Assembly: GCA_024641305.1 (NCBI GenBank)
Contig: JAHEDI010000027.1
Location: 8,355 to 46,799, forward strand
Source: a bacterium
Lineage (GTDB): Bacteria; Actinomycetota; Acidimicrobiia; Spongiisociales; JAENVV01
DNA: 38,445 bases
Reading direction: 5' to 3'
Shown here: positions 1 to 9,422 of the stretch, one piece after another
Position numbering within the stretch: the stretch's first letter is position 1
Layout: the number at the start of each line of letters is the position of its first letter
Made by a program: the position numbers and the translations under genes
Notes under the pieces: model-generated
Told to the model about the DNA's origin: nothing
Databases searched by the model: none
Seen by the model: only the letters and a program-made list of their open reading frames with translations

Positions 1-2772
1 GAGATCCGACTGTCGAGCGCCGGTACTCAAACCAACTTCGATGATGTTCAGTTGGTGACCTTCGTCGGCCCGACCATTCCGGTCTGGGGCTACACCACCA
101 CGGGTGCCGCCGCAACCAGGCCCGGTGGACCGACGCTCGTCGTCAATGAGGGCGACGAGGTCACGATCAACCTGCACAATGACCTGACCGAGGTCACTGC
201 GCTATTGATCGGCGGCCAGAGGATGACACCCGACAAAACAGGGGCTGCTTCAGGCGATACCAAGTCCTACACCTTCAGGGCTACCAACCCCGGCACATTC
301 CTGTACGAGGCAGGCCTGCTACCCAACGCCCAGCATCAGGTCGCAATGGGACTGTATGGCGCGCTGATTGTTCGGCCGGCCACGGCCGGCCAGGCCTACG
401 CCGCCGCCACCACCGCCTACGACGATGAAGCCGTGCTGGTTCTGAGCGAGATCGATCCTGCCCTCAACGCTGATCCGGCTGGGTTCGACATGCGCGATTA
501 TTCGCCCGAATACTTCCTCATCAACGGCAAGGTCTATCCGAACACTGACCTCATCCCGACTGTGGCGGGCAACAACGTGTTGCTGCGCTATGTCAACGCC
601 GGCAACCAGTACCACTCGATGATGGTGCTCGGTTCCCACCAAAGGGTGATCGCCTATGGCGGAAGTCCCCTTGCTTATTCGCATCAGGTGGTCGCCGAGA
701 CCTTCGGGCCAGGTCAGACTGCTGACGCCATCTTCACGGTCCCGGCCGGGGCGGTCGACGGTGCCAAGTTGGCCGTCTATGACGGCAGCCTGCTGCTCCA
801 CAACAGCAACACCTCAGTCACCCCGTTCGGAGGCATGCTGACCTTTCTCACCGTGACGGGACCTCCCTCGACCGGTGATACGACCGGCCCGGCGACGTCG
901 GCGATGGTGCTCGACGCCACCTCGGTGACCGCCGTTGTCAGCGACTCCGGCCTGGGCGACTCGGATGTCACACTCGCCGAGTTCTTCATCGACACGACCG
1001 GCGTCAACGGCCTTGGGACAAGCATGGCTCTAACGCCGTCTGGACCTGACTCCGTCACCGTCGACGCAACCGGGACGATCGACCCGGCGCTGACCGGGAA
1101 TCACACGGTGTACGTCCACGGTATGGACTCGGCCGGCAACTGGGGTCCGTTCCAGTCGGCACTGTTCCGTTCCGACAACAGTGGACCGCTCACCTCGGCC
1201 CTGCGCTTGTTCCGCAACCCGACCAATGGTGGGGATGTGGCCCTGTACGCGACGGCCGACGATCGACCCAGTGGCCGGGCGAACATTGCCGCCGCCGAAT
1301 ATTGGATCGGTGCTGATCCTGGGGTTGGTCTTGGCGAAATCATGACTGTCACTCCTTCCGGAGCTCAGATTGCTGCCTTGACGGCGACCTTCTCGGCCAC
1401 CCCCCTGGATGAGGGAACGCACGTCGTGTCGGTACGTAGCCAGGACTCCGAGAACAACTGGGGCGCAACGGCCACTATCGATCTGATCGTCGATAAGACC
1501 GGTCCGGCCACCAGCAACGTGCTGGCGGAGCCTCACCCCAACAACGGCATGCTCCCGATCAACTCGAGCATCGCGGCAGTCCGGGTCACGGCCACCTTCG
1601 ACGACTCGGGCAACGTCGGGTCGAAGATCGTCGCCGGTGAGGGTTTCATCGACACAGTAGGAGCCAACGGGACCGGCTTCATCTTCCTGCCCACCGACGG
1701 CTTGTTCAACGGTGTGGGTGAGAGTGGGTATGTGGACATCCCGCTGACCACGATCAACGCCCTCAGCGACGGCAACCACACCATCTACGTCCGTGGCAAG
1801 GACGCCGCCGGAAACTGGGGTACGACGAGTTCCACCATCCTGACGGTCGATAAGACGGCCCCGACGTTTACCAACATCACCGTGGCGCCCAGCCCAACGA
1901 ATGGCTCGCCGACCGTCACACTGACGGTGAACGGCGCCGCCGATACGGGCGGCAGCCTACTCTCCGGTGGTGAGTACTGGTTTGGTGCTACAAATCCGCC
2001 GCCCGGCGGCGGCACGCAGTTCAGCGGGACGAGTGCCAGCATCGACGTCAGCGCGCTGGCAACCGGAACCTACACGGTGAGCGCCCGCATCCGTGACGGA
2101 GCCCGGAACTGGAGCACAATCAGTAGCGCAACTTTGACCGTGTGGGCGGATGCCATCTTTTCCAACGGCTTCGAATCGGGAGGCAGACCGTGGGGATGGA
2201 CGAGTTCGTCGACTACCAGCACTGGTCGTCTGAACGTGACGGCGGGTGCGGCATTGGTCGGGACACTAGGCCTACAAGCGGTCGGCAACAACACCAACTA
2301 CGTGCAGTACAACTTCGGTACCCCTGCCGTCCCTGCGGCACCCACCTACGACGCCCGCTTTTACTTCCGGCCCAACGGCAACACGTCAACCGGCAAGGAC
2401 ATCTTCAGCGCGGCAACTACCAGTGGCTTCGGCACGACGCTGTTCCGGGTGCGCTACCGGTTGAACGGAGTGCAGGAGCAAGTGCAAATCCAACTGGGGA
2501 CGGCGAATACCAACACCGCTTGGACCACCATAAATGGTGCTGCCAGCAACGTGATCGAGGTTGTCTGGCAGGCGGTGGGGAGTGGTGGACCCAATCCGGG
2601 CCGACTGCAGCTCATCGTGAACGGTACTGTGGCCCAGACGCTCACCACCACCAGTACCAGTTCGGTCGGAGCGGTCCGGCTGGGCTCGGTGACCAGCACC
2701 GGAAACAACACAGCCTTGTACTTCGACGCCTTTGTGTCGAAGCGGCAGACGTCCCCACTGGTGGGCCCGTGA
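1..2772 (+). CDS. Secreted multidomain protein with degenerate multicopper-oxidase-like cupredoxin domains (5' partial)
   Basis: The frame is open from base 1, so the gene starts upstream of the window; the first in-frame ATG/GTG codons inside the window are unlikely to be the real start. Visible part is 923 residues. The first ~18 residues end in NFDDVQLV, which resembles the end of a jelly-roll or LamG/CBM-like domain. Bases ~60-870 encode two cupredoxin-type domains of the multicopper oxidase superfamily (PTLVVNEGDEVTINLHND, QVAMGLYGALIVRP, VLLRYVNAGNQYHSM). The usual HxH and YHSH copper motifs are replaced (NLHND, LYEAG), so catalytic copper binding is doubtful. Four Ig-like repeats follow, then a C-terminal domain (from ~2149) related to the one ending the subtilase at 5172-7328. 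It heads a cluster with a CopC-CopD fusion, which suggests a cell-surface or extracellular role. Family assignment is recognition from motifs; the function is inference. Confidence 0.8.
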   Translation, partial: EIRLSSAGTQTNFDDVQLVTFVGPTIPVWGYTTTGAAATRPGGPTLVVNEGDEVTINLHNDLTEVTALLIGGQRMTPDKTGAASGDTKSYTFRATNPGTFLYEAGLLPNAQHQVAMGLYGALIVRPATAGQAYAAATTAYDDEAVLVLSEIDPALNADPAGFDMRDYSPEYFLINGKVYPNTDLIPTVAGNNVLLRYVNAGNQYHSMMVLGSHQRVIAYGGSPLAYSHQVVAETFGPGQTADAIFTVPAGAVDGAKLAVYDGSLLLHNSNTSVTPFGGMLTFLTVTGPPSTGDTTGPATSAMVLDATSVTAVVSDSGLGDSDVTLAEFFIDTTGVNGLGTSMALTPSGPDSVTVDATGTIDPALTGNHTVYVHGMDSAGNWGPFQSALFRSDNSGPLTSALRLFRNPTNGGDVALYATADDRPSGRANIAAAEYWIGADPGVGLGEIMTVTPSGAQIAALTATFSATPLDEGTHVVSVRSQDSENNWGATATIDLIVDKTGPATSNVLAEPHPNNGMLPINSSIAAVRVTATFDDSGNVGSKIVAGEGFIDTVGANGTGFIFLPTDGLFNGVGESGYVDIPLTTINALSDGNHTIYVRGKDAAGNWGTTSSTILTVDKTAPTFTNITVAPSPTNGSPTVTLTVNGAADTGGSLLSGGEYWFGATNPPPGGGTQFSGTSASIDVSALATGTYTVSARIRDGARNWSTISSATLTVWADAIFSNGFESGGRPWGWTSSSTTSTGRLNVTAGAALVGTLGLQAVGNNTNYVQYNFGTPAVPAAPTYDARFYFRPNGNTSTGKDIFSAATTSGFGTTLFRVRYRLNGVQEQVQIQLGTANTNTAWTTINGAASNVIEVVWQAVGSGGPNPGRLQLIVNGTVAQTLTTTSTSSVGAVRLGSVTSTGNNTALYFDAFVSKRQTSPLVGP
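886..2142 (+). repeat. Four imperfect ~100-residue Ig-like repeats inside the exoprotein gene
   Basis: The encoded protein repeats four times a beta-sandwich-like unit that closes with a motif of the form VxxxDxxxNWG followed by a strand and VDKTGP/VDKTAP. Closing motifs are VHGMDSAGNWG, VRSQDSENNWG, VRGKDAAGNWG and ARIRDGARNWS. Unit boundaries lie near bases 886, 1183, 1501 and 1858. Such repeats are common spacers in secreted bacterial proteins. The DNA copies are diverged, so this is an old duplication. Confidence 0.75.
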
Positions 2773-2815
2773 GCGATTTGACCACCAACGGACGCGAGTC
2801 GGGGAAGAGACCAAA

Positions 2816-3319
2816 ATGATCACCGAGGCACCCCCGGAAGTGAGTAGCGAACCGCCCAGGCGGGCGGTTCGCCGCCGAACCATGGTCTTCGGCCTGATTG
2901 GTCTCCTGTTGGTGGGCGGCCTCGCGGCCGGTGCATGGTGGCCGGAGCAGAAGGTTGACGTTCGCGCCGGTACCGATCTGGTGGATGCCGAGGGAATGGC
3001 GGCCCGGTTCGGAATCGATGTGACCCTGGTCGGCACGACGGCTGCCGGGGGTCTTGTCGACTTCCGGTATCAGGTGGTTGATCCGGACAAGGCCAACCCG
3101 CTCATTCATGATGTTGACTTGCTACCGAGAATCGTCGTTGAGGACACTGGGGCCACCCTTGGTCTTGCCAACGTGCCGCATAACCACGGCACCGATCTGG
3201 AACTCGGCGGTACCTACTTCTTCCTGCTCGCCAACGCCAACAACGCGCTGCATCCAGGTGCCCTGGTGACCATTGTGATTGGCGACGCCCGACTTGAGCA
3301 TGTCGTTGTCCAGGGATGA
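2816..3319 (+). CDS. Small membrane-anchored protein with a PHNHG motif, copper-cluster associated, function unknown
   Basis: 167 residues. A basic cytoplasmic N-terminus (PPRRAVRRRT) precedes one hydrophobic segment at about residues 23-42; the rest is predicted extracellular and rich in beta strands. The ectodomain has the histidine cluster VPHNHGTDLELGG and a further HPG, which could bind metal, and no cysteines. The ATG at 2816 is chosen because a purine-rich stretch (ggggaagaga) lies just upstream and it gives a normal membrane anchor; an in-frame ATG at 2732 would overlap the previous gene. It ends in an ATGA overlap with the CopC-CopD gene, so the two are probably co-translated. I do not recognise a named family. 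The position between a cupredoxin-like exoprotein and CopC-CopD suggests copper handling, which is inference. Confidence 0.75.
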   Translation: MITEAPPEVSSEPPRRAVRRRTMVFGLIGLLLVGGLAAGAWWPEQKVDVRAGTDLVDAEGMAARFGIDVTLVGTTAAGGLVDFRYQVVDPDKANPLIHDVDLLPRIVVEDTGATLGLANVPHNHGTDLELGGTYFFLLANANNALHPGALVTIVIGDARLEHVVVQG

Positions 3320-5175
3320 TCCACGCCAGGCTCCTTCGAACTAAACCCCGCCGATGGGTCACGACCCTGGCGGCCGTTTTGGTCCTGATGGTCGCCTCGG
3401 CGTTGCCTGCCTCTGCCCATGGCACGCTGGACCGCTCCGAACCTCCCAACGGGGGAAAAGTAGCCGAGGGCCGTTCCACGATCAGCCTGTGGTTCTCGGA
3501 GCCGATTCGCTCACAGGCCAGCCTGTTCGATTTGCACACGGTCGACGGGGTTCGGGCGGTCATCACGGTCTTTGCCCACGAGGCGGACGGTGGAGCGTTC
3601 GTCGAGATCAACACCGACGATCTCCTCAAAGCGACCTACATTCTCGACTGGACCGTTCTTTCCCTTGACGACGGGCACCCCTCACGGGGATCGGTCATCT
3701 TCGGGGTAGGCGACTGGCCGGTCGTGGTCGAATCGGGTAGCAATCGGCCTCCCGCCCCGGCGGCCCTGGCCGTCAGATGGATGGACCTCATGGCGATCAT
3801 GTTGGCGATCGGGGCTTTGACCGTTTCCGGACGGATCCTCGACTCGGCAGGCAAGTATGGTCAAGGGGTCAGGCGCCGGGTACTGCGAATCGGGAGGTTC
3901 GGTGCCCTGACCGCAGTGGTGATTGGCGTCATCACACCGTTCATGCGGGTCCCCCGCTCGGACAACTCGCTCGGGACCTGGACCGATACGACCTGGTCGA
4001 CCCTCATGGGAACGTCGTGGGGGAGATGGTGGACGGCCCGTGAAGTCGGCCTGATCCTGTTGGCGGTCATCCTGGGCTTCCTGGCCGCCGGGAGTCGAGG
4101 AACGGGCATCCGTCGGACCGCCTGGGCGACTGTCGTCGGCGTGGCCGGCATCGAGGCCTGGCTGGGTCATGCGTCGACCCTGCCGAGGCAATCCTGGTTG
4201 GTTGCGGGAGCCTCGGCCGGTCATCTGGTGGCGGCCGGTATTTGGGCAGGCGGCCTCGCCATTCTCGTCGTGTGCCTGGGTCCCACCATGTGGCGCCGCC
4301 CCGAATCGCGGGGGCCACTGTTATCAACGGTCTGGCAATCCTTCAGTCCGGTCGCCGTTTTTGCCACCGTGGCGCTGTTCGCCACCGGGCTGTACGAATC
4401 AGGTCGACACCTGCCGGACCTCGGCTCGGCCGCCTCAACCGTGTATGGCACTGCCATCGGCGCCAAGATCCTCCTGATGGGACTCGGCTTGGCCCTGGCG
4501 GGAGCTAACACGCTTCTCATCAATCCGTTACTCGCCGGTCGCGTGGCCCGCCGACTCCATCGACCCGCCGGTTGGGCCCCCATCTCGCTGCGCGGGTTCA
4601 ACACGGTCGTCGTTATTGAAGCGCTCGTCCTCGCCGTCGCAGTGGTCTTCGCCGGATTGGCCACGTCGGTAGCCACGACCCGGGATGTTGCGGCGGCCGC
4701 TGCCGAGACGGCACCGATGAGTGCCAACGTCGATGGTCTATTCGTTACCTTTGAGGCTCTCCCGGCTGGCGCAGGTCAAAGCCGACTCATCGTTCGCACC
4801 CGGGCCACGACCAAGCCCGAGCCTGGCCCGATCACCGCAGTCGACGTGTCTCTTGAAAGTTCTTCCACACCGGTAACCACGCTTCTCCTCACCACGATAG
4901 AAGCCGGGCGTTTTGAAACTGAAACGGCCCGGCTCACCCCCGGTCTGTCGAATGTTTCGGTGATCATTCATCGGGATGGTACCCCCGACGCCGTCGCCAG
5001 AATTGCCTGGGAGACCCCGGTTCCGGTACCTGCATCGGCGGGGCCACTCGAACTGGCAACGACGGGGATCGCTGCCCTGTTGGTCTTGGCCACATCCGCT
5101 TTTGTACAAATGAAACGTCGACCGCGGCTCACGCCGACGGAGACCAAGCAACTTGTCTATGGGAGGCAAACATGA
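3316..5175 (+). CDS. CopC-CopD fusion copper protein (YcnJ-type)
   Basis: 619 residues. A signal peptide ends at ...LPASA, leaving His35 as the mature N-terminus, as in Cu(II)-binding CopC proteins. The CopC domain (about 35-135) contains SEPPNGG, LWFSEPI and WTVLSLDDGHPSRGS, whose Asp119 and His121 match the Asp-x-His copper ligands of the family. It is followed by a multi-pass membrane CopD-like domain (about 150-450, several hydrophobic helices) and a C-terminal ectodomain (about 460-570) ending with one more helix and a basic tail. CopC-CopD fusions bind copper outside the membrane and are thought to help its import or delivery. The ATG overlaps the upstream stop (ATGA), and its own stop overlaps the next start (ATGA, with GGGAGG upstream). 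Identity is confident; direction of copper flow is not visible. Confidence 0.9.
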   Translation: MIHARLLRTKPRRWVTTLAAVLVLMVASALPASAHGTLDRSEPPNGGKVAEGRSTISLWFSEPIRSQASLFDLHTVDGVRAVITVFAHEADGGAFVEINTDDLLKATYILDWTVLSLDDGHPSRGSVIFGVGDWPVVVESGSNRPPAPAALAVRWMDLMAIMLAIGALTVSGRILDSAGKYGQGVRRRVLRIGRFGALTAVVIGVITPFMRVPRSDNSLGTWTDTTWSTLMGTSWGRWWTAREVGLILLAVILGFLAAGSRGTGIRRTAWATVVGVAGIEAWLGHASTLPRQSWLVAGASAGHLVAAGIWAGGLAILVVCLGPTMWRRPESRGPLLSTVWQSFSPVAVFATVALFATGLYESGRHLPDLGSAASTVYGTAIGAKILLMGLGLALAGANTLLINPLLAGRVARRLHRPAGWAPISLRGFNTVVVIEALVLAVAVVFAGLATSVATTRDVAAAAAETAPMSANVDGLFVTFEALPAGAGQSRLIVRTRATTKPEPGPITAVDVSLESSSTPVTTLLLTTIEAGRFETETARLTPGLSNVSVIIHRDGTPDAVARIAWETPVPVPASAGPLELATTGIAALLVLATSAFVQMKRRPRLTPTETKQLVYGRQT

Positions 5176-7328
5176 GGAAATTCCTGGCCCTGGTTCTGGT
5201 CACAATGCTCGTATCGCTGGTCGGGGCCACGACCTCGGCCGGCGCAGCTGCGCCCACTAAAGACACAAACGTCATTTCCCCCGGGGTGGCAGCGAAGCTT
5301 GCCACACTCGGATCGGGAGAACAGATGACCGTGATCATCACCTTGAGCGATCAGGCCGACTTGAGCGCTCTCCCTGGCGCCTCGCGTGCAGCCCGCTCAA
5401 GCGCGGCGATCCGGGCGTTGCAGGCAAAGGCATCAGCCTCCCAAATGCCGGTTACTGCTTTCCTGCGCGCCCGGACCGCCCAACACAAAGTCACCGAATT
5501 CAGATCATTCTGGATCTTCGATGGCCTGGCCGTTACTGCCACGGCGGACGTGATCGAGGAACTTGCCGCCCGGTCTGATGTGGCGAGCGTGACCCTCGAC
5601 GAAATCACGATTGTCCCGACCTACGGACCCGCTCAGCCGAACCTAACTCTTGTCCAAGCCCCGTCCCTCTGGAACCAGGGTTATACCGGTGGGGGAGTTG
5701 TGGTGGCCAGCCTCGACAGCGGCGTTGATGTCAACCACCCGGATCTGGCTTCCCGATGGCGGGGGGGTACGAACAGTTGGTTCGATCCCTACGGCCAGCA
5801 CCAGGCCTATCCGGTCGACCTCAGCGGACATGGCACCGGGACCATGGGTGTGATGGTCGGTGGCGATTCGGCCGGAACGTCGATCGGCGTTGCTCCCGGC
5901 GCCAGCTGGATCGCCGCGCGAATATTTGACGACCGAGGTCGATCGACGGCGTCTGCCATTCATTCTGCGTTTCAATGGGTGCTTGACCCGGATGGAGACC
6001 CGACCACACTCGACAGTCCCCAGGTGGTCAATAACTCCTGGTCATTCGGTTCCGGCGGTGGTTGCAACCTGGAGTTTCAGCCAGACCTTCAGGCCCTTCG
6101 CTCGGCCGGCATCGTGCCGGTATTTGCGGCGGGAAACTTCGGGTCCGGTTCTTCGACCAGTTCGAGTCCCGCCAACTATCCCGAAGCCCTAGCCGTAGGC
6201 GCAGTCGACAACGGCGACCTCATCGCCTATTTCAGTAGTCGGGGACCGTCGTCCTGCGGTGAAAGTTCCACCACGTTTCCCGAGATCGTGGCGCCGGGCG
6301 TCAGCATCAAGACCTCCGACCGCTACGGCCTGTTTCAATATGCGTCGGGAACTTCCCTGGCGTCGCCTCATGTCGCCGGAGCGATCGCCCTCCTGTTGAG
6401 TGCCGATTCCGCCTGGACGGCAGGTGACGCCGAGCAAGCCATCCTCGCCACGGCCGTTGACCTCGGCAGTCCCGGACCGGATAACACGTTCGGTAAGGGT
6501 CGGCTCGACATTGCAGCCGCCTACCAATGGCTACTGAATCCGCCGACCACGACCACGACTTCGCCGACCACGACCTCGTCCACGACGACCTCGTCCACGA
6601 CGACCTCGTCCACGACGACCTCGTCCACGACGACCTCGTCCACGACGACCTCGTCCACCACAACGTCATCGACCACCACGACGATGCCGGCAACCACCAC
6701 CACGACCTTGCCTCCAACAAGTGGCCTGTTCAGCGACGGATTCGACGACGGAAGTCTGACCGCTTGGTCAGCGGCAAGTACCAACGGCGGCAAACTGAGC
6801 GCTACACGGGCGGCGGCATTGAACTCTTCCGCCTATGGGCTCCAGGCTGTGATCTCGAATCGGAACTCCATGTACGTGGCCGACTGGTCACCCGTTGCGT
6901 CGAGTGTCTACGGTGCCAGATTCATGTTTGATCCGAACGGGACGTCGATCCCGAGCCGGCAGGTGCATGACCTGTTCGTCGGGAGCGATGGCTCGGGAAC
7001 GGTCGTGTTCCGTGTTCAGATCCAGAGTGGCTCGAACGGGTATGAGGTCCGCGGACGGGCGATCAGCAAGCGGGGGAGAGAGCAGTCCACCGCCTGGGTC
7101 CCACTGACGGATGGACCTCATTCCATTTCGGTCGACTGGGTCAGTTCGTCGAGCGGCACCAATGGATCCTTCATACTGTCAATCGATGGCGCCGTTGGGT
7201 CTACCGCCGGTGGCCTCACCAATGGCCCGTATCGGGTTGACGAAGTCCGCCTTGGCCCGCAAGGGATCGGCAAGAACATCCAGGGTACCGAGTACTTCGA
7301 CAACTTCGTCACCATTGCATCCAGCTGA
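5172..7328 (+). CDS. Secreted subtilisin-like serine protease (S8) with Thr/Ser linker and C-terminal accessory domain
   Basis: 718 residues. Signal peptide about 1-26 (cleavage near SAGAA), an I9-type propeptide (about 50-145), then the S8 catalytic domain with Asp182 (LDSGVD), His220 (SGHGTG), oxyanion Asn322 (AAGNFG) and Ser395 (SGTSLASPH). The triad is complete, so an active secreted peptidase is expected. Residues ~457-515 form a Pro/Thr/Ser linker with TTTSS repeats. The last ~200 residues (GLFSDGFDDGS...EYFDNFV) form a domain related to the C-terminus of the exoprotein at 1-2772. The ATG overlaps the CopC-CopD stop (ATGA) and has GGGAGG at 5161-5166. It may process or turn over the other exoproteins of the cluster; that is inference. 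Confidence 0.93.
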   Translation: MRKFLALVLVTMLVSLVGATTSAGAAAPTKDTNVISPGVAAKLATLGSGEQMTVIITLSDQADLSALPGASRAARSSAAIRALQAKASASQMPVTAFLRARTAQHKVTEFRSFWIFDGLAVTATADVIEELAARSDVASVTLDEITIVPTYGPAQPNLTLVQAPSLWNQGYTGGGVVVASLDSGVDVNHPDLASRWRGGTNSWFDPYGQHQAYPVDLSGHGTGTMGVMVGGDSAGTSIGVAPGASWIAARIFDDRGRSTASAIHSAFQWVLDPDGDPTTLDSPQVVNNSWSFGSGGGCNLEFQPDLQALRSAGIVPVFAAGNFGSGSSTSSSPANYPEALAVGAVDNGDLIAYFSSRGPSSCGESSTTFPEIVAPGVSIKTSDRYGLFQYASGTSLASPHVAGAIALLLSADSAWTAGDAEQAILATAVDLGSPGPDNTFGKGRLDIAAAYQWLLNPPTTTTTSPTTTSSTTTSSTTTSSTTTSSTTTSSTTTSSTTTSSTTTTMPATTTTTLPPTSGLFSDGFDDGSLTAWSAASTNGGKLSATRAAALNSSAYGLQAVISNRNSMYVADWSPVASSVYGARFMFDPNGTSIPSRQVHDLFVGSDGSGTVVFRVQIQSGSNGYEVRGRAISKRGREQSTAWVPLTDGPHSISVDWVSSSSGTNGSFILSIDGAVGSTAGGLTNGPYRVDEVRLGPQGIGKNIQGTEYFDNFVTIASS
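6567..6671 (+). repeat. 15-bp tandem repeat encoding TTTSS, seven units
   Basis: The unit acgacgacctcgtcc is repeated head to tail; the five units at 6582-6656 are identical, and the outer two carry substitutions. Because 15 is a multiple of 3, gain or loss of units changes linker length without a frameshift. The repeat also creates long spurious open frames on both strands. Confidence 0.92.
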
Positions 7329-7395: not shown

Positions 7396-8709
7396 TTAGG
7401 CGGGGAGTCTCAGGACCATGCGGCAACCCGGTTCGGCGTGTTCTATTACAAGCTCTCCACCGGCATTGGTAGCAAAAGTGCTGACGACCGACAACCCGAG
7501 GCCGCTGCCGCTCGTCGGTGCGGTTCCGCGACCAAACGGCTTGATGACTTCCCCATGGAATGCCTTCTCGATTCCCTGTCCATGATCTCGCACCGTGAAT
7601 TCAACAACATCCTCGGACGGCCGAATGGCGACCTCGACGGGCGGTTCGCCATGCCGGAACGCGTTATCGACCAAGTTGGCCAGCACGCTAATGAGGAGGT
7701 TGGCGTCAATGTCCATGGTACGCGATCCGTCCGACTCGCTCATCGTCAGGTGTATCGACTCGCCGTATGCTGAACGATCGCGTAGGCCATCGGCGATCGT
7801 TTGTAGCGGGACGGTGTTCGGCAACTTTGCACCGTGGTCGACCGTCAACATCCCGAGCAGTGAATCGGCCAGCGACGTTAGATGTTGGGCGTGGTTGTCG
7901 ATCCTGCCCAATGAGTCAAGTAGTTCATCTGGGGTCCTGATCGGGCGTCGGGCGAGCTCGATGTCGGCGCGCAACCGTGCGATCGGGGTTCGGAGTTCGT
8001 GACTTGCCTCGGCAAGAAAGCGTTGTTGCCTTTCCATCATCTCTTCGATCCGGGCGAGAACCTCATTGAACGACTCGGCGAGGCCCTTCACCTCATCATC
8101 GGACTCCGGGACGGGGAGCCGCCGGCCGTTAGGCGACACCGCCAATTGCATGGCGCTTTCTCTTAGCGCGTCAATCGGATTCAAAACGAAGCCTGTCACG
8201 AAGTAGGCCCCGATTCCCGCCAGAATCGTGAAAGCCACTACCGCCAAGGCGACCGTCGCCTGAAGCTCGCCAAACCGTTCGTCAAGTTCTCTGGTGGGTA
8301 TGGCCATGACCAGAGTGTGAGGTGATCCCTGATACTCGACCGGGAGGGTCACGAGTCGTAGCTCCTCACCCAGGACTGGGTCTGTCACGGTGGTGTACTC
8401 GCCACTTGGCTGATTGCCGGGTGCTGGAGGCGGCTCGGGGAGTGTGTGGTCGACGAGCTCTCCTGCACTGTTGAATAGGCCTACTCGCTCAACGAAGGAC
8501 GAATCCTCAAGGTGGAATGTGCCGAGCGGGAGTCCTCCCACAACCGCGACATAGGCTTCTGCTGCCTCCTCGCCGAGTGAGGTGTCAAAGTCCGCGGCGA
8601 TCGCGGAGCCGGATCTCGACAACGCCAGCCCCCCGATACTTGACGCCACCACTGCCGCCGCACCGGCGACGAGCAGGGCGATGCGGAATCGGATCGGCAG
8701 GCGCCTCAT
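7396..8709 (-). CDS. Two-component sensor histidine kinase (HAMP-HisKA-HATPase)
   Basis: 437 residues. A first transmembrane segment at about 9-31 and a second at about 155-178 enclose a ~120-residue extracellular sensor region. A HAMP-like linker (ALRESAMQLA) leads to the H-box QRFLAEASHELRTPIARLRA with the phospho-accepting His, an N-box (SVLANLVDNAFRHG), G1 (DHGQGI) and G2 (GSGLGLSVV). It trans-autophosphorylates and passes phosphate to the response regulator encoded just upstream, with which it shares an ATGA overlap (RR stop/HK start). The signal is unknown. Its stop faces the subtilase stop, 67 bases away, and I see no clear hairpin between them. Confidence 0.93.
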   Translation of the reverse strand: MRRLPIRFRIALLVAGAAAVVASSIGGLALSRSGSAIAADFDTSLGEEAAEAYVAVVGGLPLGTFHLEDSSFVERVGLFNSAGELVDHTLPEPPPAPGNQPSGEYTTVTDPVLGEELRLVTLPVEYQGSPHTLVMAIPTRELDERFGELQATVALAVVAFTILAGIGAYFVTGFVLNPIDALRESAMQLAVSPNGRRLPVPESDDEVKGLAESFNEVLARIEEMMERQQRFLAEASHELRTPIARLRADIELARRPIRTPDELLDSLGRIDNHAQHLTSLADSLLGMLTVDHGAKLPNTVPLQTIADGLRDRSAYGESIHLTMSESDGSRTMDIDANLLISVLANLVDNAFRHGEPPVEVAIRPSEDVVEFTVRDHGQGIEKAFHGEVIKPFGRGTAPTSGSGLGLSVVSTFATNAGGELVIEHAEPGCRMVLRLPA

Positions 8710-9422
8710 GCCCGCCTGAGTCGGTAACCAAGGCCGCGGACGGTTTCGATCGAATTGGAACCAAACGGGTCGTCGACTTTGCTCCGTAGCGCCCTAATGT
8801 GCACATCGATGACGTTCGACAACGGTTCTTCGGTGTCGTCATCGTGGAGTCGATGGGCGATCTGGGAGCGCGTCAACACGTTGCCCGTATTGACCATGAG
8901 CGTTTCGAGGATGCGTGCCTGCGTCGGCGTCAGATCGATCTCGATGTCTCCGCGTTTGGCTACGAGCCGGCTTGGCTCAAGCATGAGCGAACCCACTCGG
9001 ATTGGTGCCTCGGTTGGCCGATCCCAGCGCCGATGCAGTGCCCGGAGTCGAGCCCCGAGGACAGCTAACGGCACCGGCTTGACGACATAGTCATCGGCAC
9101 CCGAATCGAGGGCGGCGACGATCGCTGCGGCGTCGCCAAGCGAGGTGAGCATGAGAATAGGCAAGTCGACGCCCTGGGCCCGGAGAACCTGGGCAAGCTC
9201 GATGCCGCTGCGATCAGGGAGCGATACGTCCAGAATGATGGCATGGAGGCCGCTCATCATGGCTCGTCGGTAGCCTCCGGCGAAACTGTGAGCGACTTCG
9301 ACGTGATACCCGTCCTCGGTCAATCCTTGTTCTATGAGGCGGGCGAGGACGGTGTCATCCTCTACCAGTAGGACGTGGAACTCATTCGGTCGGCCGTGGA
9401 GAACGGAAACCGTGGCCCTCAT
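8706..9422 (-). CDS. OmpR/PhoB-family response regulator
   Basis: 238 residues. The receiver domain has the acidic pair in LLVEDD, the phospho-acceptor Asp in IILDVSLPDRSG, the switch Thr in LMLTSLGD and the Lys in DYVVKPVP. The C-terminal winged helix (about 145-235) contains LTPTQARILETL, VIDVHIRALRSKV and the closing VRGLGYRLR, as in OmpR/PhoB DNA-binding domains. No ATG or GTG lies closer to the receiver, so the start at 9422 with its slightly long 15-residue lead is kept; GAGG sits a few bases upstream. It is the partner of the histidine kinase downstream. The long 5' region contains a strong hairpin (9484-9513). Confidence 0.93.
   Translation of the reverse strand: MRATVSVLHGRPNEFHVLLVEDDTVLARLIEQGLTEDGYHVEVAHSFAGGYRRAMMSGLHAIILDVSLPDRSGIELAQVLRAQGVDLPILMLTSLGDAAAIVAALDSGADDYVVKPVPLAVLGARLRALHRRWDRPTEAPIRVGSLMLEPSRLVAKRGDIEIDLTPTQARILETLMVNTGNVLTRSQIAHRLHDDDTEEPLSNVIDVHIRALRSKVDDPFGSNSIETVRGLGYRLRRA

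Follow-up and report, generated by a model that had tools for sequence, protein, structure and literature searches.

We analyzed a stretch of 38,445 nucleotides from an actinobacterial genome (G000:C82:8355-46799, hereafter the window), which opens with genes for a cupredoxin-like exoprotein, a small membrane-anchored protein, a CopC-CopD fusion, and a secreted subtilase. These four genes are the second half of a conserved seven-gene operon, whose first half encodes a beta-helix surface protein and two multicopper oxidase (MCO) paralogues, MCO1 and MCO2; the exoprotein is the third paralogue, MCO3. Judging by how copper ligands are distributed among the three paralogues, we consider it likely that they form a surface heterotrimeric, O2-reducing MCO in which one active site is shared by two gene products. 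In general descriptions, an MCO is either a complete single chain or a homotrimer. The MCO family itself is known, but we found no described MCO with a trinuclear site divided between paralogous gene products, nor one of a heteromeric, split, or heterotrimeric kind, in the open-licence literature. In order, the operon contains:

C82:3-5081, same strand as the window genes: SdrD_B and right-handed beta-helix protein, at least 1692 amino acids (aa), 5' end open
C82:5078-6478, same strand as the window genes: MCO1, 466 aa, twin-arginine translocation (TAT) signal
C82:6482-7837, same strand as the window genes: MCO2, 451 aa
Window 1..2772, + strand: MCO3 (the exoprotein), with a two-domain MCO-like module, immunoglobulin (Ig)-like repeats, and a C-terminal domain; 5' end beyond the window
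Window 2816..3319, + strand: small membrane-anchored protein, 167 aa
Window 3316..5175, + strand: CopC-CopD fusion, Pfam CopC and CopD, CopC ligands intact
Window 5172..7328, + strand: secreted subtilase (S8), Peptidase_S8 with an intact triad; usually the last gene of the operon

An earlier note on this DNA had described a four-gene cluster. All four frames are present on one strand, with ATGA overlaps between the small protein and CopC-CopD and between CopC-CopD and the subtilase, so the genes and their order are real; the cluster is not a complete unit, as three more genes lie upstream across a run of Ns. This 100-N scaffold gap (C82:8255-8354) directly precedes the window start and falls inside the MCO3 gene, which starts near C82:7847-7858, on the far side of the gap. 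Because the gap and the window edge cut the operon, the signal peptide of MCO3 and the three upstream genes were missed in the window.

MCO1, MCO2, and MCO3 are two-domain paralogues of the type C two-domain MCOs and share the layout of 2ZWN (a metagenome laccase), 3G5W (the blue copper oxidase of Nitrosomonas europaea), and the complete Chloroflexota proteins at L079 and L080. The best solved relatives of MCO1 are 2ZWN and 3G5W, and L080 matches 2ZWN across both domains. We tallied ligands at homologous columns after alignment to L079 and L080. The motifs HTxHWHG and HCHxxxxEHxxMGM of MCO1 domain 1 correspond to those of type C enzymes, and H162, H165, H167, H207, C208, H209, H215, and M220 were present in 28/28 MCO1 proteins, with M218 in 27/28. 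The type 1 copper site (H162, C208, H215, and M220 in 28/28; M218 in 27/28) thus sits in the N-terminal domain, together with the four trinuclear histidines H165, H167, H207, and H209. The four trinuclear histidines of domain 2 were missing from all 28 MCO1 proteins. In MCO2, the trinuclear histidines of domain 2 (H302, H304, H418, and H420) were kept in 30/30 proteins, and the type 1 and domain-1 ligands were lost in 30/30, with the type 1 cysteine replaced by serine in every case. MCO3 retained copper ligands in 0/31 proteins, which agrees with the earlier view of the exoprotein as a cupredoxin-like protein (it matches Cu-oxidase_3) that has lost the ligands of an MCO.

At the sequence level, the pattern of ligand loss is complementary. 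A full set, consisting of a type 1 site and eight trinuclear histidines, is held by MCO1 and MCO2 jointly (28/28 and 30/30) and by neither alone. In type C enzymes, which are homotrimers, every chain has the whole set of ligands, whereas those of the operon MCOs are split over two genes and the third gene contributes none; neither MCO1 nor MCO2 has all trinuclear ligands on one polypeptide. Consequently, neither one of these chains by itself nor a homotrimer of any of the three is predicted to be able to build a trinuclear site. In a tree computed with the ligand columns removed and containing no six-domain MCO, each paralogue formed one clade that includes both Actinomycetota and Chloroflexota (Shimodaira-Hasegawa approximate likelihood ratio test, SH-aLRT, 100, 100, and 99 for MCO1, MCO2, and MCO3). 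Each paralogue therefore has a single origin, which indicates that the division of labor is old and stable.

A natural four-domain fusion in Chloroflexota (L107:572-2866, - strand; G721:C101; 764 aa) appears, from its ligands, to repeat the division between MCO1 and MCO2 within one chain, with domains 1 and 4 intact and the sites of domains 2 and 3 lost. When we looked for a fused MCO1-MCO2-MCO3 gene among the loci, we found none, and only this four-domain protein, in a genome without the small protein, came near. The L107 MCO also has a C-terminal cupredoxin domain, and the gene of a 414-aa plastocyanin-like protein precedes it, as also seen at L081.

One genome scan seeded with the small protein yielded 34 loci in Actinomycetota and Chloroflexota, with Kribbella, Cellulomonas, Actinoplanes, Nonomuraea, Catellatospora, Solirubrobacter, Kineosporia, and others among the actinobacterial genera. 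Genes for the beta-helix protein, MCO1, MCO2, MCO3, and the small protein followed one another on one strand in 27/27 loci with at least 6.5 kb of upstream sequence, in both phyla. Downstream genes were less constant: across the 29 loci with at least 4 kb of downstream sequence, CopC-CopD was found in 15, the subtilase in 22, and at least one of the two in 24. The invariant core of the operon is three complementary MCO subunits plus the small protein, to which CopC-CopD and the subtilase are optional additions. G115, the relative nearest to the four originally described genes, has the identical four-gene order, and both phyla contain further examples of the wider operon. Conservation of gene order in relatives, on which the earlier note had staked its reading, was thus observed, and the idea that the genes make up a coherent surface unit, conserved and connected with copper, is supported. 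We note that N runs break both MCO3 in the window genome and the junction of the small protein and CopC in G115 (L006, near 10429), which makes single-gene annotation of these two places unreliable.

Since the loci had been found through the small protein, we also checked co-occurrence in reverse with an MCO2 profile. Full-score matches were found in 3/396 sampled actinobacterial genomes and 8/301 sampled Chloroflexota genomes, and the small protein was present in all of these (11/11); it was absent from five Chloroflexota genomes carrying only other MCOs. Weak matches to the small protein, with E-values of 1e-5 to 1e-3 (for example, in G258), were excluded from its relatives. The identity matrices of partner proteins correlate with one another (r 0.88-0.94).

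The operon is sporadic in distribution, and the small protein was found in 0/4 sampled genomes of the same genus as the window genome. The closest relative of MCO1, of MCO2, and of MCO3 from the window genome is in each case the same Chloroflexi locus, L041. Taken together, these two patterns suggest that the operon probably moved between phyla as one unit. In L041 the small protein gene is also duplicated in tandem (L041:7776-9425).

Two-domain MCOs are trimers whose trinuclear site is made from residues of two protomers (PMC13151041; PMC3192119), and in type C enzymes the site is expected where domain 1 of one protomer meets domain 2 of the next. Because such sites need two protomers, and only MCO1 domain 1 and MCO2 domain 2 fit, we propose a heterotrimer with a single four-copper site. 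MCO1 domain 1 would provide the type 1 copper and four of the eight trinuclear histidines, MCO2 domain 2 would provide the other four, and MCO3 and the remaining domains would provide none. The subunits could assemble as a 1:1:1 ring of six cupredoxin domains, like homotrimeric two-domain MCOs or single-chain ceruloplasmin, with the sole trinuclear site at the interface of MCO1 domain 1 and MCO2 domain 2, and with the adjacent type 1 site in MCO1. Electrons from the substrate would enter at the type 1 copper of MCO1 and pass to the trinuclear site, where O2 would be reduced to water. MCO3 appears to be a third, structural subunit of the set rather than a stray ligand-less oxidase; it would close the ring and, with its Ig repeats and C-terminal domain, serve as the tether, with the SdrD_B/beta-helix protein as a surface scaffold. 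The small protein would hold the complex to the membrane, perhaps with a part in copper loading, CopC-CopD would supply copper where present, and the subtilase would trim the exported subunits.

Parts of this arrangement have counterparts in known systems. Six-domain MCOs, including ceruloplasmin, hephaestin, and bacterial MnxG-like proteins, have one trinuclear site and have lost the others (PMC3600357), and the ceruloplasmin type combines six cupredoxin domains with one trinuclear site, as in the proposed ring. However, six-domain MCOs are single chains, whereas MCO1, MCO2, and MCO3 are three separate two-domain polypeptides, and their type 1 site belongs to a first domain. The Mnx manganese oxidase of Bacillus (MnxE3F3G) is a heteromeric complex around an MCO (PMC5622069), as is proposed here, but it combines MnxG with the non-MCO subunits MnxE and MnxF, whereas the partners in this operon are all MCO paralogues that would share one site.

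Several points weigh against the proposed heterotrimer. The predicted model of MCO2, taken whole, best matches two-domain enzymes (4KNS, 2ZWN, and 3G5W) and its domain 1 is modeled well, but the end of domain 2, with the second HxH, has a predicted local distance difference test (pLDDT) score of 25-33. Because this C-terminal part is poor, the second HxH was placed by sequence alignment alone, and the single-chain model was dropped as a source of site geometry. We infer both the 1:1:1 ring and the part played by MCO3, and a different heteromer of MCO1 and MCO2, lacking MCO3, might exist instead. In addition, we have a weak preference for a metal ion as substrate, and it comes solely from an acidic pair adjoining the type 1 site of MCO1 (E211 in 28/28, D212 in 26/28).

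The split oxidase might instead act on phenolic or matrix components of the cell surface, oxidizing and cross-linking these rather than oxidizing metal ions, and the beta-helix protein could be its substrate or a scaffold. The presence of the giant SdrD_B/beta-helix surface protein upstream of the MCO genes in 27/27 loci is consistent with such a function, as is the name laccase borne by one type C relative. However, the acidic pair is absent at those positions in 2ZWN and 3G5W and would suit a metal ion, and we regard oxidation of phenols or matrix as rather unlikely, if the best of the alternatives.

The origin of the triad can also be read in another way, as a six-domain single-chain MCO that was split into three genes, rather than as a homotrimeric two-domain MCO that was duplicated. 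In six-domain MCOs, too, there is no more than one trinuclear site (PMC3600357), but every subunit here has its own N-terminal export region and both domains in full, and the same phylum also contains complete type C enzymes with two domains (L079 and L080), which makes a split improbable. We tentatively suggest, at somewhat less than even confidence, that a stage between homotrimeric two-domain and single-chain six-domain MCOs survives in the triad, with its three duplicated genes still unfused, one of three possible trinuclear sites remaining, and L107 as a partly fused relative. An old proposal holds that ceruloplasmin-type proteins arose by triplication of a two-domain oxidase. If the divided-site model is true, this origin would become directly testable in living bacteria, and the operon would represent a new mode of assembly, in which an active site is drawn from two gene products and accompanied by a wholly dead third paralogue. 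It also carries a warning, as single-gene annotation labels MCO2 and MCO3 degenerate though they are apparently obligate partners.

A further alternative dispenses with the trinuclear site, so that MCO1, alone or as a homo-oligomer, would be a mononuclear blue copper electron carrier and MCO2 and MCO3 would be structural relics. MCO1 does have its own complete set of type 1 ligands, and its domain 2 and the whole of MCO3 show that the fold persists without copper, but the histidines kept at the exact trinuclear positions (four in 28/28 MCO1 proteins, four in 30/30 MCO2 proteins) would then be purposeless, and we give this alternative little credence. The same low standing falls to the earlier note's suggestion of a copper-acquisition or protein-maturation unit, a role that would have copper bound or carried by the exoprotein and the small protein: a CopC-CopD fusion, YcnJ, imports copper in B. 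subtilis (PMC13344008) and the CopC ligands are intact here, but roughly half of the clusters lack CopC-CopD, whereas the MCO triad is constant, MCO3 is without any copper ligand, and the histidine cluster of the small protein varies.

Among the accessory proteins, the small protein has no Pfam family, and the operon gives a context to a family without a Pfam or NCBIfam name. Its predicted structure consists of a single transmembrane helix at the N terminus plus an Ig-like beta-sandwich (pLDDT 87.5). We found no sequence relative with a solved structure and no structural match above background: the PCuAC entries 6P16, 6P1G, and 3ZK0 scored Z 4.4-4.8, and unrelated Ig-like entries scored up to 6.4. 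A PCuAC-like fold is a candidate at most. The protein does not carry the PCuAC motif H(M)X10MX21HXM, as it has no methionine after H98, and the motif is not conserved in the family. The earlier note had described a membrane protein with a PHNHG cluster; the membrane-anchored protein is real, but PHNHG is not a family signature, as homologues have LMxHxH, PHAH, KH, or nothing at that site. We therefore rejected a conserved histidine-cluster copper protein as a family trait. A copper role for the small protein is only a guess, and its predicted structure is most safely read as a membrane anchor for the complex.

As the earlier note had stated, the CopC-CopD fusion has intact copper ligands. Both Pfam domains match over cut-off, and across 18 aligned proteins H35 is conserved in 16, D119 in 18, and H121 in 18. 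Like YcnJ, the window protein has CopC fused to CopD and keeps the CopC ligands. YcnJ has a C-terminal YtkA domain, whereas none was found in the window protein by Pfam, and the window fusion belongs to an oxidase operon in which its presence is optional. CopC-CopD is a probable copper importer or copper handler, and by analogy an optional copper-supply role would fit.

The subtilase assignment was also correct, with a Peptidase_S8 match and the Asp-His-Ser triad D182, H220, and S395 intact in 26/26 aligned proteins. MCO3 divides into the MCO-like module (~1-870), the Ig-like repeats (~871-2130), and the C-terminal domain (~2155-2745). A C-terminal domain of ~190 residues is common to MCO3 (2155-2745) and the subtilase (6720-7325), at 32% identity (E 1e-13), which suggests a shared attachment or export route; exoproteins of G348 end in a similar domain. 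Between the protease and C-terminal domains, the subtilase has a Thr-rich repeated linker (~6600-6710), where open frames are also found in other frames and on the other strand. For the beta-helix protein, an assignment as NosD was rejected, with a score of 23 bits versus a cut-off of 300.

Two further genes lie directly downstream of the operon:

Window 7396..8709, - strand: histidine kinase, convergent with the operon
Window 8706..9422, - strand: OmpR-type response regulator, paired with the histidine kinase

This pair is a possible regulator of the operon. Two-component genes also adjoin the operon in Kribbella, Solirubrobacter, and one Chloroflexi genome. These systems are of differing kinds and lie upstream or convergent (L103:8968-10705, L109:7138-10069, L101:842-2678, and window 7396-9422).
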